Below, piece after piece: positions 1,442 to 28,028 of a stretch of DNA of 64,000 bases. Below the pieces are notes generated by a model. It ran no database searches. It was not told the origin of the DNA and was given only the letters and a program-made list of their open reading frames with translations. Numbering within the stretch: position 1 is the stretch's first letter; each line of letters begins with the position of its first letter. The stretch is from Tenacibaculum sp. 190524A02b (GTDB taxonomy: Bacteria > Bacteroidota > Bacteroidia > Flavobacteriales > Flavobacteriaceae): contig NZ_OZ038525.1 of NCBI RefSeq assembly GCF_964036645.1, forward strand, positions 2,440,501 to 2,504,500, in the 5' to 3' direction. Both the position numbers and the translations under genes were made by a program.

Positions 1442-1822
1442 TTACTTTTTGTCTTTTGGGCGTTTTGCTCCGTATTTAGATCTACGTTGAGTTCTTCCCT
1501 CAACACCTGCAGTATCTAAAGCACCACGAACAATGTGATATTTAACACCTGGTAAATCTTTTACCCTTCCACCTCTAACTAATACTATCGAGTGCTCTTG
1601 TAGGTTGTGCCCCTCACCTGGAATATACGCGTTAATCTCATTACCATTTGTTAACCTAACACGCGCTACTTTACGCATTGCTGAATTAGGTTTCTTTGGT
1701 GTTGTTGTGTATACACGCGTACAAACTCCACGTCTCTGAGGACATCCCGTTAAAGCAGCCGATTTACTCTTCTTAGTTATTTTGGCTCTTCCTTTACGAA
1801 CTAATTGTTGAATAGTTGGCAT
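1442..1822 (-). CDS. rpsL: 30S ribosomal protein uS12
   Basis: Decoding-centre protein and first gene of the str operon. The 126-aa protein carries the conserved loops [11 protein letters not shown] (Lys43) and RVKDLPGV (Lys88, Asp89). Lys43 and Lys88 are the residues altered in streptomycin-resistant or -dependent mutants of other bacteria. Both are wild type here, so no rpsL-type streptomycin resistance is predicted. Asp89 is the residue methylthiolated by RimO in many bacteria. Transcription should start from the strong promoter at 1883-1913, leaving a leader of about 55 bases that contains a small hairpin. Confidence 0.98.
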
Positions 1823-26022: not shown

Positions 26023-26040
26023 GTATCTATTATTAGATAT

Positions 26041-26295
26041 AAAAAAACCTGAACTCACATTCAGGTTTTTTATAACCAAACTTAGTATAAAACTAACTAC
26101 TACTATTTAAAAACTATACTTTTCTATTTTTTTAAAAGCTCTCCTTTCAGGGGTGTCTTTTCAGACCGCATATACAAGGGAAATCTTACTCAGAGAGACT
26201 TTAGGTGTTTATACCTTTGTATAAACTAGGGAAAACAAACTATATTATACAATGAAAACTCAGCTTAACAACAAAACCATTTTAAACTGATTTTC
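26041..26295 (-). ncRNA. Candidate structured ncRNA, unit A
   Basis: Leftward transcript of about 255 nt from the GTGAC/TGTCA element to the terminator at 26041-26071 (stem CCTGAA/TTCAGG, T7 on the minus strand). Contains hairpins GUUUAUAC/GUAUAAAC and GUCU-GAAA-AGAC (GNRA-type tetraloop), a closing helix AAAG-CUCUC / GAGAG-CUUU and the 3' box. No Rfam family is recognised by eye; not RNase P, tmRNA, 6S or SRP RNA. Confidence 0.55.
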
Positions 26296-26302
26296 AGTTA
26301 TT

Positions 26303-26328
26303 TGACACATTTTTTTTCATTAAGTCAC
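26303..26328 (-). promoter_or_regulatory. Conserved GTGAC-N16-TGTCA element, unit A
   Basis: GTGAC (26324-26328), exactly 16 bases, TGTCA (26303-26307), read leftward, followed by AATAACTG. The layout resembles -35/-10 boxes of an ECF-type sigma factor and does not match the housekeeping TAnnTTTG promoter. It also forms a TGAC/GTCA dyad. Confidence 0.55.
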
Positions 26329-26347
26329 TTCTTTTGTAAAAAACATT

Positions 26348-26614
26348 AAAAAAACCTTGAACTCTCACTCAAGGCTTTTTATAACCAAACTTAGTATAAA
26401 AACTAACTACTACTATTTAAAAACTATACTTTTCTATTTTTTAAAACTCTCTTTTCAGGAGCACCTTTTCAGATTACATTATACTAGGGAAATCTTACTC
26501 AGAGAGTATTTAAGGGTTTATATTTATTAGGGAAAAACAAACTATAAACTACTAATATTAACTATTCTAATGATCGTTTTAAAACTTGAAACAAATTATT
26601 TGTTTATTACTTAC
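26348..26614 (-). ncRNA. Candidate structured ncRNA, unit B
   Basis: Leftward transcript of about 265 nt ending at the terminator 26348-26380 (stem CCTTGA/TCAAGG, T7 on the minus strand). The tetraloop hairpin reads AUCU-GAAA-AGGU: relative to units A and C one G-C pair has become A-U and one U-A has become U-G, with the loop unchanged. The first hairpin (GUUUAUAC) is shortened by about 11 bases and not retained. Confidence 0.55.
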
Positions 26615-26621
26615 ATTTATA

Positions 26622-26647
26622 TGACACATTTTTTTCTACTAGGTCAC
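26622..26647 (-). promoter_or_regulatory. Conserved GTGAC-N16-TGTCA element, unit B
   Basis: GTGAC (26643-26647), 16 bases, TGTCA (26622-26626), read leftward, followed by TATAAATG. The spacer differs from the other copies while the boxes and distance are identical. Confidence 0.55.
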
Positions 26648-26780
26648 ATCCTTACAAAGAAAAACTTTACTACATAACCAACATACTTGTTTTATTTTAT
26701 CTCCAAATAATGACTAAAAAAGAATTAAGATTAGAACAATAGTATAAACTGGTTTAATTTCATCTTCAAAAACACCTAAT

Positions 26781-27061
26781 AAAAAAGACCTTGAATATTC
26801 ATCCAAGGCCTTTTTGTCTAACCAAACTTAGTATAAAAACTAACTACTACTATTTTAAAAACTATATTTTTTTCTTTATTAAAAGCTCTCTTTTCAGGAA
26901 TGTCTTTTCAGACCGCATATACAAGGGAAATCTTACTCAGAGAGACTTTGGGTGTTTATACATTTTGTATAAACTAGGGAAAAACAAACTATAATTAATT
27001 ATAATTATATCTTTAATGAACTTGTAAAAAACTTTAAAACTATTACTTTGTTTTTGTTTTC
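26781..27061 (-). ncRNA. Candidate structured ncRNA, unit C
   Basis: Leftward transcript of about 280 nt ending at the terminator 26781-26816 (GGCCTTGGAT paired with ATTCAAGGTC, then T6). Core nearly identical to unit A, including GUUUAUAC/GUAUAAAC, GUCU-GAAA-AGAC and the AAAG-CUCUC closing helix. A rightward 67-codon frame in this unit is not kept in the other copies and is rejected as coding. Confidence 0.55.
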
Positions 27062-27068
27062 ATTTATA

Positions 27069-27094
27069 TGACACTTACTTTTCTAAGAAGTCAC
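27069..27094 (-). promoter_or_regulatory. Conserved GTGAC-N16-TGTCA element, unit C
   Basis: GTGAC (27090-27094), 16 bases, TGTCA (27069-27073), read leftward, followed by TATAAATGAAAAC. Confidence 0.55.
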
Positions 27095-27130
27095 ATAAAA
27101 GTTAATTTTTATTTTCTTTTAATTCTTTTT

Positions 27131-27389
27131 AAAAAGACCTTGAACATATATCCAAGGCCTTTTCGTCTAACCAAACTTAGTATAAAAACTAACTACTACT
27201 ATTTTTAAGAACTTTTCTTTCTTTTTAATTAAAAACCTCTCTTTTCAGTACTTCTTTTTCTGTATTCATACACCATATCTTACTAAGAGAGACTTGTTTT
27301 TAGGGGCTTTTTTAAAGAAAAAAGCTAACTAATTGTTCAATGAACATTTAAAAACTTCAAAACTGTTATTTTATTGTTTTGTGTTTTCA
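27131..27389 (-). ncRNA. Candidate structured ncRNA, unit D (most diverged)
   Basis: Leftward transcript of about 260 nt ending at the terminator 27131-27164. The first hairpin has an entirely different sequence, GCUUUUUU/AAAAAAGC with a CUUU loop, in the place of GUUUAUAC/GUAUAAAC in units A and C, so pairing is kept without sequence. The GAAA tetraloop hairpin is degraded. CUCUC/GAGAG and the 3' box are retained. Confidence 0.5.
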
Positions 27390-27396
27390 TGTTATT

Positions 27397-27422
27397 TGAC
27401 ACGTCTTTTTTTAGATAGTCAC
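27397..27422 (-). promoter_or_regulatory. Conserved GTGAC-N16-TGTCA element, unit D
   Basis: GTGAC (27418-27422), 16 bases, TGTCA (27397-27401), read leftward, followed by AATAACATGAAAAC. It begins 9 bases after the terminator of the upstream clpS operon. Confidence 0.55.
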
Positions 27423-27466: not shown

Positions 27467-27751
27467 CTAGTATAAATATTTTCTTAAAATTACTCGGTGT
27501 TCTGGTAGTGATTTATCATACTTTTCTACCAGTTTTTCAAGTATTTCTGGCGGTTTCACTCCTACTTCTTTTTTTGATTTAAATTTAGAAACATATAAGT
27601 TATAATATTCTTCTTCTTTTATTTTTTCTTTCTCAAAAATTAAAAAATGAGTTTCATTTAACTCTGTAAAGCATATTTTTTTTCCTTTGAAAGCCCCTGA
27701 TTTGTCTTCAAAAAAATCAGAAAACTCATAATACCTAAAAACGTTTTCCAT
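27467..27751 (-). CDS. Small conserved-looking protein downstream of clpS
   Basis: A 94-aa acidic/basic soluble protein beginning MENVFRYYEFSDFFEDKSGA from the ATG at 27751; a TTG nine bases upstream would overlap the clpS stop. I do not recognise the family. It has no signal peptide or membrane segment and ends LPEHRVILRKYLY. The start lies one base from the clpS stop, so it is the last gene of the clpS transcript and is probably translationally coupled. A role with ClpS cannot be inferred beyond this linkage. Confidence 0.65.
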   Translation of the reverse strand: MENVFRYYEFSDFFEDKSGAFKGKKICFTELNETHFLIFEKEKIKEEEYYNLYVSKFKSKKEVGVKPPEILEKLVEKYDKSLPEHRVILRKYLY

Positions 27752-27752
27752 A

Positions 27753-28028
27753 TTATACAATCTCCGCAGAAAGTCCTAGCTGTAGTAACCTAGAGCATCT
27801 TGGTTCTAAATCTTTATATTCTCCAGTTTTTACTGCACACTTACCTTTGTAGTGAACTAAAACTGTACATTGTTCTGCTTGTTCTGGTGTATGCTCACAC
27901 ACACTTATTAAACTATCAATTACAAAATCAAAGGTATTTACATCATCATTGTATAAGATAATTTCATACTCTTTTGTTTCTTGTATTAAAACATCTAATT
28001 CTTCTTGAATTTTCTCTATTGTGCTCAT
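27753..28028 (-). CDS. clpS: ATP-dependent Clp protease adaptor ClpS
   Basis: Delivers N-degron substrates to ClpAP/ClpCP. The 91-aa protein has the family core ILYNDDVNTFDFVIDSLISV (substrate-pocket Asn-Asp), followed by HTPEQAEQCTVLVHYKGKCAV, which matches the HxxGxxxV-type edge with Tyr-Lys-Gly in this group. It sits 7 bases downstream of prmA in a leftward housekeeping gene group. Confidence 0.92.
   Translation of the reverse strand: MSTIEKIQEELDVLIQETKEYEIILYNDDVNTFDFVIDSLISVCEHTPEQAEQCTVLVHYKGKCAVKTGEYKDLEPRCSRLLQLGLSAEIV

Follow-up and report, generated by a model that had tools for sequence, protein, structure and literature searches.

Tandem small RNA genes in Tenacibaculum as a candidate feedback arm of an extracytoplasmic function sigma factor

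Why should a bacterium keep four diverged copies of one short unit, one behind the other, in an interval that holds no genes? The question is raised by a stretch of 64,000 nucleotides from Tenacibaculum sp. 190524A02b (contig NZ_OZ038525.1, positions 2,440,501 to 2,504,500; the whole stretch is referred to here as the window), in which four tandem minus-strand units, U1 to U4, occupy positions 26038–27422 inside 1.4 kb without genes. The units are spaced at 310–440 bp (U1 27422–27129, U2 27094–26780, U3 26647–26346 and U4 26328–26038) and all follow one plan, in which a pair of upstream boxes is succeeded by a variable 5′ part, a hairpin (P1), a 3′ box of 32–33 nt and a terminator of the unit's own. 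A first-pass annotation of the DNA had described four leftward, individually terminated paralogous units, and this is borne out by their coordinates, their alignment and the boxes they share. It had matched them to no known RNA; a search of the window against Rfam 15 at gathering cut-offs (RNase P, tmRNA, 6S, SRP and riboswitches) likewise gave no match, which places the units in none of its families at that level. A relaxed search stayed below threshold throughout; its best match, STnc370, scored 29.4 bits where 54 are required, in alignments that include the terminator hairpin. Since the family is present in many relatives, a chance origin of the units is disfavoured, and the sequence evidence that the array is a real small RNA (sRNA) family is strong. 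For this family, absent from Rfam 15 at the cut-off, the explanation we favour is that it forms the noncoding arm of a feedback loop on a flavobacterial extracytoplasmic function (ECF) sigma factor.

The transcribed strand of the interval holds no open reading frame (ORF) of at least 60 amino acids, and one 67-residue ORF with a TTG start runs antisense to the array units. The predicted RNAs, whose sizes of ∼260–285 nt depend on inferred start points, would span 27129–27390 (U1), 26780–27062 (U2), 26346–26615 (U3) and 26038–26296 (U4). P1 lies at 27233–27295, 26886–26944, 26446–26507 and 26139–26197 in U1 to U4, respectively, and in U1 it is a CUCUC/GAGAG stem with an internal AGUA...GAA motif. 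Alignment places the 3′ box, which reads AGTAGTAGTTAG...GGTTA in U1 and is nearly invariant among the four units, at 27168–27200, 26819–26851, 26382–26414 and 26073–26104. It also places a terminator hairpin with a T-run at the end of every unit (27129–27163, 26780–26814, 26346–26380 and 26038–26072), while a simple terminator scan of the minus strand scored one of the four ends, that of U3.

The pair of boxes reads GTGAC-N15-GTGTCA, letter-perfect and with identical spacing, in all four units (U1 27397–27422, U2 27069–27094, U3 26622–26647 and U4 26303–26328). With up to one mismatch it occurs four times in the window against a shuffle mean of 0.25, and none of 100 shuffles reached four; the exact pattern is found 11 times in the whole genome (5.04 Mb) and its backwards control not at all. 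A looser pattern, GTGAC-N17-GTCWTA, has ten genomic sites against one in the control, and one of the ten precedes a gene for an ECF sigma factor in the same genome (G000:C1:2921134-2921703, TTG start). The identity of this protein is indicated by TIGR02937 (99.3 bits), by the Pfam domains Sigma70_r2 and r4_2, and by its PDB relatives SigW and RpoE. Among 166 Tenacibaculum and Polaribacter genomes (the genus set), 102 have a match to the ECF protein; 90 of these were examined, and 88, that of the window included, carry the promoter upstream of the ECF gene when one substitution and a spacer of 14–16 are allowed. By the same rule it stands upstream in 27 of 29 loci from other genera, these being the best 29 of 73 other-genus genomes with a match. 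Because the same motif precedes ECF genes across genomes, the box pair is read as the promoter of an autoregulated ECF sigma factor, and the case that it is an ECF-type promoter common to the units and the ECF gene is strong. Two traits of an ECF-sigma-dependent sRNA are present: a promoter common with the ECF's own gene, at the level of sequence, and a Rho-independent terminator at the 3′ end, in 4/4 units by sequence and alignment.

Other promoter sites of this type in the genome precede genes for what we take, from their sequences, to be an M48-like peptidase, a repeat protein, and small and large secreted-looking proteins; the repeat protein and the large secreted-looking protein gave no Pfam match. 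One such site (L001:1501-1720; genome position 453883) is followed by a C6/G6 hairpin-like leader, a possible attenuator, and then by the large secreted-looking gene. Another (L002:1127-1526, minus strand; genome position 565337) has no ORF of 60 amino acids behind it on that strand and no visible 3′ box, and may possibly drive a further sRNA. A scan for sigma-70 promoters was uninformative, with ten found against a shuffle mean of 9.0. Directly 3′ of the ECF gene lies a 65-residue ORF (L143:2148-2345), without a Pfam or NCBIfam match, which recurs in 30 genus and 28 outgroup loci (E≤1e-3) and is perhaps a regulator of the sigma factor.

The first-pass annotation had suggested a covariance-model search of relatives. 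A model of the 3′ box and terminator, built from six sequences, recovered the family, including homologous arrays, in 101 of the 166 genomes of the genus set (best E per genome <1e-6). Exact-pattern matches with names (61 stretches) belong to Tenacibaculum, to Polaribacter and, in a few cases, to organisms named only as Flavobacteriaceae or Bacteroidia. Box and ECF gene occur together in 92 genomes, the box alone in 9, the ECF gene alone in 10 and neither in 55 (Fisher p=5e-24, kinship ignored). The location is also conserved: prmA, clpS or a conserved ORF adjoins the box in 88 of 98 fetched loci, several of which come from one genome, and the other ten include contig-end fragments as well as L041 and L073, which are apparently located elsewhere. 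In the window these neighbours are a gene that we presume from its sequence to be clpS (27753–28028, minus strand), the conserved upstream marker of the locus, and the conserved ORF between it and the array (27467–27754, minus strand), which has no Pfam match. Tenacibaculum sp. M341 has box units that lie off the usual clpS place (L106:5060-5200 and L073:4414-4540). T. skagerrakense (L065) carries three units, and Polaribacter sp. Hel1_85 (L062) has the coding form described below. Box copies number one in 48 of the 61 named loci and two to seven in 13, some loci being cut by contig ends; with one to seven copies a dosage role for the tandem units is plausible, though the 48 loci are single-copy. 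Searches beyond the genus set gave 43 of 397 family genomes at E≤1e-4 (two of them of the genus), with a best outside score of 49 bits, and these matches were taken as terminator noise; the box pattern was not found in the loci fetched for the out-of-genus matches (L109–L136). The conserved neighbour ORF was tried as an outgroup anchor and set aside, being present in 3 of 149 genomes, too few for the purpose.

Comparison of these loci revealed something the first-pass annotation had not foreseen, namely that in many Polaribacter the 3′ box is the 3′ end of a protein gene. The same promoter and box there enclose a gene for a secreted-looking peptide of ∼62 residues that ends inside the box; the peptide mostly terminates in KDSSS-stop, and the codons AGT AGT AGT TAG form the start of the box. 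We call the peptide PID-CTERM-like because the one tested (G001) scores below the cut-off of NCBIfam PID_CTERM (NF046080; 19.7 bits, E=0.00055, against 26 bits); a search of the window's genome for PID_CTERM gave nothing at E≤1. Compared across genomes, the box with its terminator closes off a coding gene at these Polaribacter loci and a noncoding unit at other loci. Unique units whose promoter could be recognised number 132, those without one being left out, and comprise 24 peptide-coding units (22 flagged by script, plus L279 and L280 spotted by eye), 107 that are noncoding by ORF screen, and one decayed gene (L283). In a tree of 53 loci based on prmA, clpS and the conserved ORF, all 35 loci of the Tenacibaculum clade are noncoding, while the Polaribacter-side clade holds nine coding and six noncoding loci, so that a single gain of the gene would require three losses; around the box of three of the six (L067, L084 and L092) the promoter could not be recognised. 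The box has repeatedly been retained where the coding sequence decayed (L283, L067 and L092), and it is because the box persists after loss of the protein that a function at the RNA level is argued. Parsimony gives the root a cost of 4 if noncoding and 5 if coding, and the node that unites L054 with the Polaribacter side has 59% support; with costs this close, a one-way conversion from mRNA to sRNA is not claimed. Just before the box, a small hairpin that seems to be kept with changed pairs (GGATCT/AGATCC, GAGTCT/AGACTC and GCACT/AGTGC) is seen at L012 ∼1584–1600 (minus strand) and in L067, L092 and L054. It is present in many coding units, in the remnants and in L054, is weak elsewhere and is missing from several coding units; it may be a processing signal.

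The 107 noncoding units share features other than the box. A CUUCUC-type P1 stem is found in 43, and 26 of these have AGUA and GAA just inside the arms, an arrangement that, to our eye, resembles the loop E or sarcin-ricin motif. Positions of the stem alternate between A-U, G-C and U-A/C-G pairs, in stems that had been picked for pairing. The 5′ motif AAGTTCATT occurs in 32 units against a dinucleotide-shuffle mean of 0.3, and TCCC in 60 against a shuffle mean of 28.

What the box might pair with is indicated by the leader of the ECF gene. It carries TAACCAAACTTA, a perfect antisense of TAAGTTTGGTTA in the box, giving 12 Watson-Crick pairs 4 nt before the TTG start. None of 857 other start regions of the genome has a 12-bp run to the box, and three reach 11, the sample being the start regions of ATG-started ORFs of at least 110 residues in 24% of the genome plus the window. 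Judged against 378 control start regions, the duplex between ECF leader and box belongs to the best 5% in 40 of 47 genomes of the noncoding form, in 5 of 19 of the coding form and in 12 of 23 whose locus form was not fetched (G012 and G020 placed in the coding form, the pseudogene of G096 set aside). Of the 29 ECF leaders from other genera, in which no box was convincing, 4 reach this level. Leader length differs as well: Tenacibaculum of the noncoding form mostly have ∼35–50 nt that include an antisense site, and Polaribacter of the coding form mostly ∼15 nt. One species group has a different antisense, AAACTAACTATACT, directed with one bulge to the first half of the box; two leader sequences, antisense to two different halves of the box, occupy one pre-start position in different species groups. 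In the same operon, the leader of a mechanosensitive-channel gene (Pfam MS_channel) reaches the 5% level in 13 of 30 genus loci versus 3 of 22 outgroup loci, a comparison weakened by the poor placement of the channel start in several of the latter; the leader of the ORF between the two genes does so in 1 of 30 genus loci. Elsewhere in the genome of the window (L187:1501-1518; genome position 3540965), a gene for D-arabinono-1,4-lactone oxidase has a perfect TAACCAAACTTA 3 nt upstream of its start codon, and its leader is a possible second target of the box.

From the units, their common promoter, the conservation of the box and its complementarity, all seen in the sequence, we propose with moderate confidence that U1 to U4 are ECF-driven, trans-acting sRNAs that brake their own sigma operon and, the sigma factor being of the stress type, would thus put an RNA brake on a stress response. 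The ECF sigma factor would use the GTGAC-N15-GTGTCA promoters to transcribe the units, and a promoter of this kind to transcribe its own gene. The near-invariant box beside the terminator would serve as the seed: by pairing within the ECF mRNA leader, directly ahead of the TTG start, it would repress translation, and it would probably also pair with the leader of the channel gene in the ECF operon. When the sigma factor is active the RNAs would accumulate, with several copies raising the dose, and the sigma operon would be shut down in a negative feedback. The 5′ parts (the P1 hairpin, AAGUUCAUU and the UCCC motifs), which differ between copies, may serve other targets; in many Polaribacter the box would act as the 3′ end of the mRNA for the PID-CTERM-like small protein. 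The structured-RNA reading of the first-pass annotation is thereby retained for paralogous terminated RNAs and refined in two respects: its upstream box pair becomes an ECF-type promoter and its 3′ box the best candidate for a pairing segment. More tentatively, and with some doubt, we suggest that the locus toggled between a small-protein mRNA and free sRNAs while keeping promoter and 3′ seed, that the sRNA state was multiplied to as many as seven copies, that the leaders of the sigma operon gained longer sites, and that the GGGGGA-loop RNA described below is an extra layer of the circuit.

Several observations weigh against such a feedback loop. The duplex with the ECF leader has a predicted energy of −17.3 kcal/mol, and 26 of the 857 start regions are as good or better. 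The antisense 12-mer is not over-represented in the genome, with ten matches, four of them the boxes themselves, against nine in the control. When the leader is shuffled, p≤0.05 is reached by 20 of 47 genomes of the noncoding form and by 5 of 19 of the coding form (p=0.10 in that of the window); when the box is shuffled, it is reached by 9 of 24 nonredundant leaders of the noncoding form (binomial p=1.3e-6; p=0.086 in the genome of the window) and by 2 of only 3 nonredundant ones of the coding form. Because shuffles are positive in the coding form too, pairing may occur in both forms, and its link to the sRNA form is a tendency; leaders of the coding form retain a shorter match of 10 pairs, some of them G-U, that covers the start codon. 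Short leaders also put promoter bases into the tested region, the genomes compared are related rather than independent, and the near-invariance of the box leaves no compensatory changes between box and target to be scored. Predicted folds do not leave the box clearly open, with a mean unpaired probability of 0.1–0.7 per position and 0.49 over the 5′ part, and the best candidate for Hfq in the genome of the window (PF17209) reaches 12.6 bits against a cut-off of 27. That this ECF sigma factor, and not another, uses the unit promoters is inferred from the autoregulation. With these points counted, the leader of the ECF operon is supported as a putative feedback target of the box.

Part of the same evidence would suit ECF-driven sRNAs with mainly other targets, mRNAs of envelope or secreted proteins as for the E. 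coli sigma-E sRNAs, and a secondary or fortuitous match to the ECF leader. The moderate outcome of the shuffle tests, the second perfect 12-mer before the lactone oxidase start, and the conservation of AAGTTCATT without a known partner all fit this explanation, as does the fact that sigma-E sRNAs commonly act on envelope mRNAs (for FoxJ, PMC11005410). The strong sites in the ECF and channel leaders, however, are commoner in noncoding-form genomes and rare in other genera, and we regard a primary role on other mRNAs as rather unlikely. The box might instead be bound by a protein, or stabilize the 3′ end of sRNA and mRNA alike, with the RNAs acting as protein decoys in the manner of CsrB and RsmY. 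This would account for the repeated UAG units of the box and for how little it varies between and within the two forms, coding and noncoding, and tandem copies would suit titration; since the 12-pair match to the ECF leader and its pattern across genomes are left unexplained, such decoys seem improbable.

Our preferred reading, ECF-driven sRNAs acting on the sigma operon, also has to be set against two further accounts. The units could be remnants of a duplicated PID-CTERM gene with no function as RNA, given that the same locus encodes a peptide in many Polaribacter and that decayed copies exist. This is made very improbable by the retention of the box in the 35 Tenacibaculum-clade loci, all without the coding sequence, and also has against it the P1 stems with varying pair types in many units and the slight preference of parsimony for a noncoding root. 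Variable inserts between constant ends, in tandem copies, recall an integron-like DNA recombination site at which cassettes are shuffled; but most inserts have a promoter of their own, the constant position beside prmA, clpS or the conserved ORF is often occupied by a single copy, and no recombinase ORF was seen by eye in 13 kb around the array, so that we give this idea hardly any credence.

RybB, MicA and MicL are sigma-E-dependent sRNAs of enterobacteria, and FoxI and FoxJ are described for Fusobacterium (PMC11005410). U1 to U4 resemble them as an sRNA arm of an ECF response with predicted base pairing, and differ in being several tandem paralogues, in their phylum, in having the sigma operon as predicted target, and in a seed at the 3′ end beside the terminator in an organism with no Hfq above cut-off. 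For Flavobacterium psychrophilum (PMC9723704), an ECF-type promoter, SM6, is reported, with the sRNA Rfp11 following a sigma-ECF promoter and an ECF/anti-sigma pair in the same regulon; the likeness, compared by description, is that of a flavobacterial sRNA behind a sigma-ECF promoter. UdsC of Rhodobacter sphaeroides is a 3′-UTR-derived sRNA that binds the 5′ untranslated region (UTR) of rpoHII mRNA (PMC9779115), an action on the mRNA leader of an alternative sigma factor like that predicted here; unlike UdsC, which stems from an mRNA, U1 to U4 are free-standing, multicopy and apparently driven by the sigma factor they would repress. OppZ and CarZ, autoregulatory 3′-UTR sRNAs that repress their own transcripts (PMC7398697), resemble them in the predicted negative feedback by an sRNA whose 3′ end may be shared with an mRNA, whereas the predicted target of U1 to U4 is the mRNA of their regulator elsewhere in the genome. 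The parts of the UdsC, OppZ/CarZ and FoxJ accounts available (PMC9779115, PMC7398697 and PMC11005410) mention no tandem multicopy sRNA that represses its driving sigma factor. No paper on the box RNA family was among the matches listed in the open-licence literature, as judged by title and abstract opening.

A second small-RNA family lies beside the ECF operon. It consists of a GATAGA-loop TTTCGGGGGACT-TCTATC hairpin followed by a terminator-like hairpin, here termed the GGGGGA-loop RNA, and was found in 30 of 30 genus loci (L150–L179), for example at L150:3185 and 3320; in the genome of the window it stands directly after the ECF operon (L356:7818 and 7953). The first copy lies behind a loosely defined sigma-A-like TAnnTTTG box, and the second copy (twice a third) behind an ECF promoter in 23 of 30 loci. 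A related GGGGGAC hairpin is present in 3 of 20 Polaribacter-type regions; the one match in 29 other-genus loci, which may end too early, was taken as chance. Against Rfam all matches were under the cut-off (best E 0.0002). Sponge pairing with the UCCC motifs of the noncoding units was considered and set aside as unconvincing, since 35 of the 107 units have runs of at least 6 where shuffles give 25.7. If it takes part, the GGGGGA-loop RNA would add a second RNA layer to the ECF circuit.

Regulatory RNA is less charted in the Bacteroidota than in enterobacteria, and the sRNA family described here comes in many natural variants, together with a sigma factor and a precisely predicted target site. 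Related genomes show the coding sequence vanishing from between a promoter and a 3′ end that remain. The family also opens the evolution of target sites and of sRNA copy number to testing. Some members of the genus live associated with fish, and in these the circuit may matter for stress survival.
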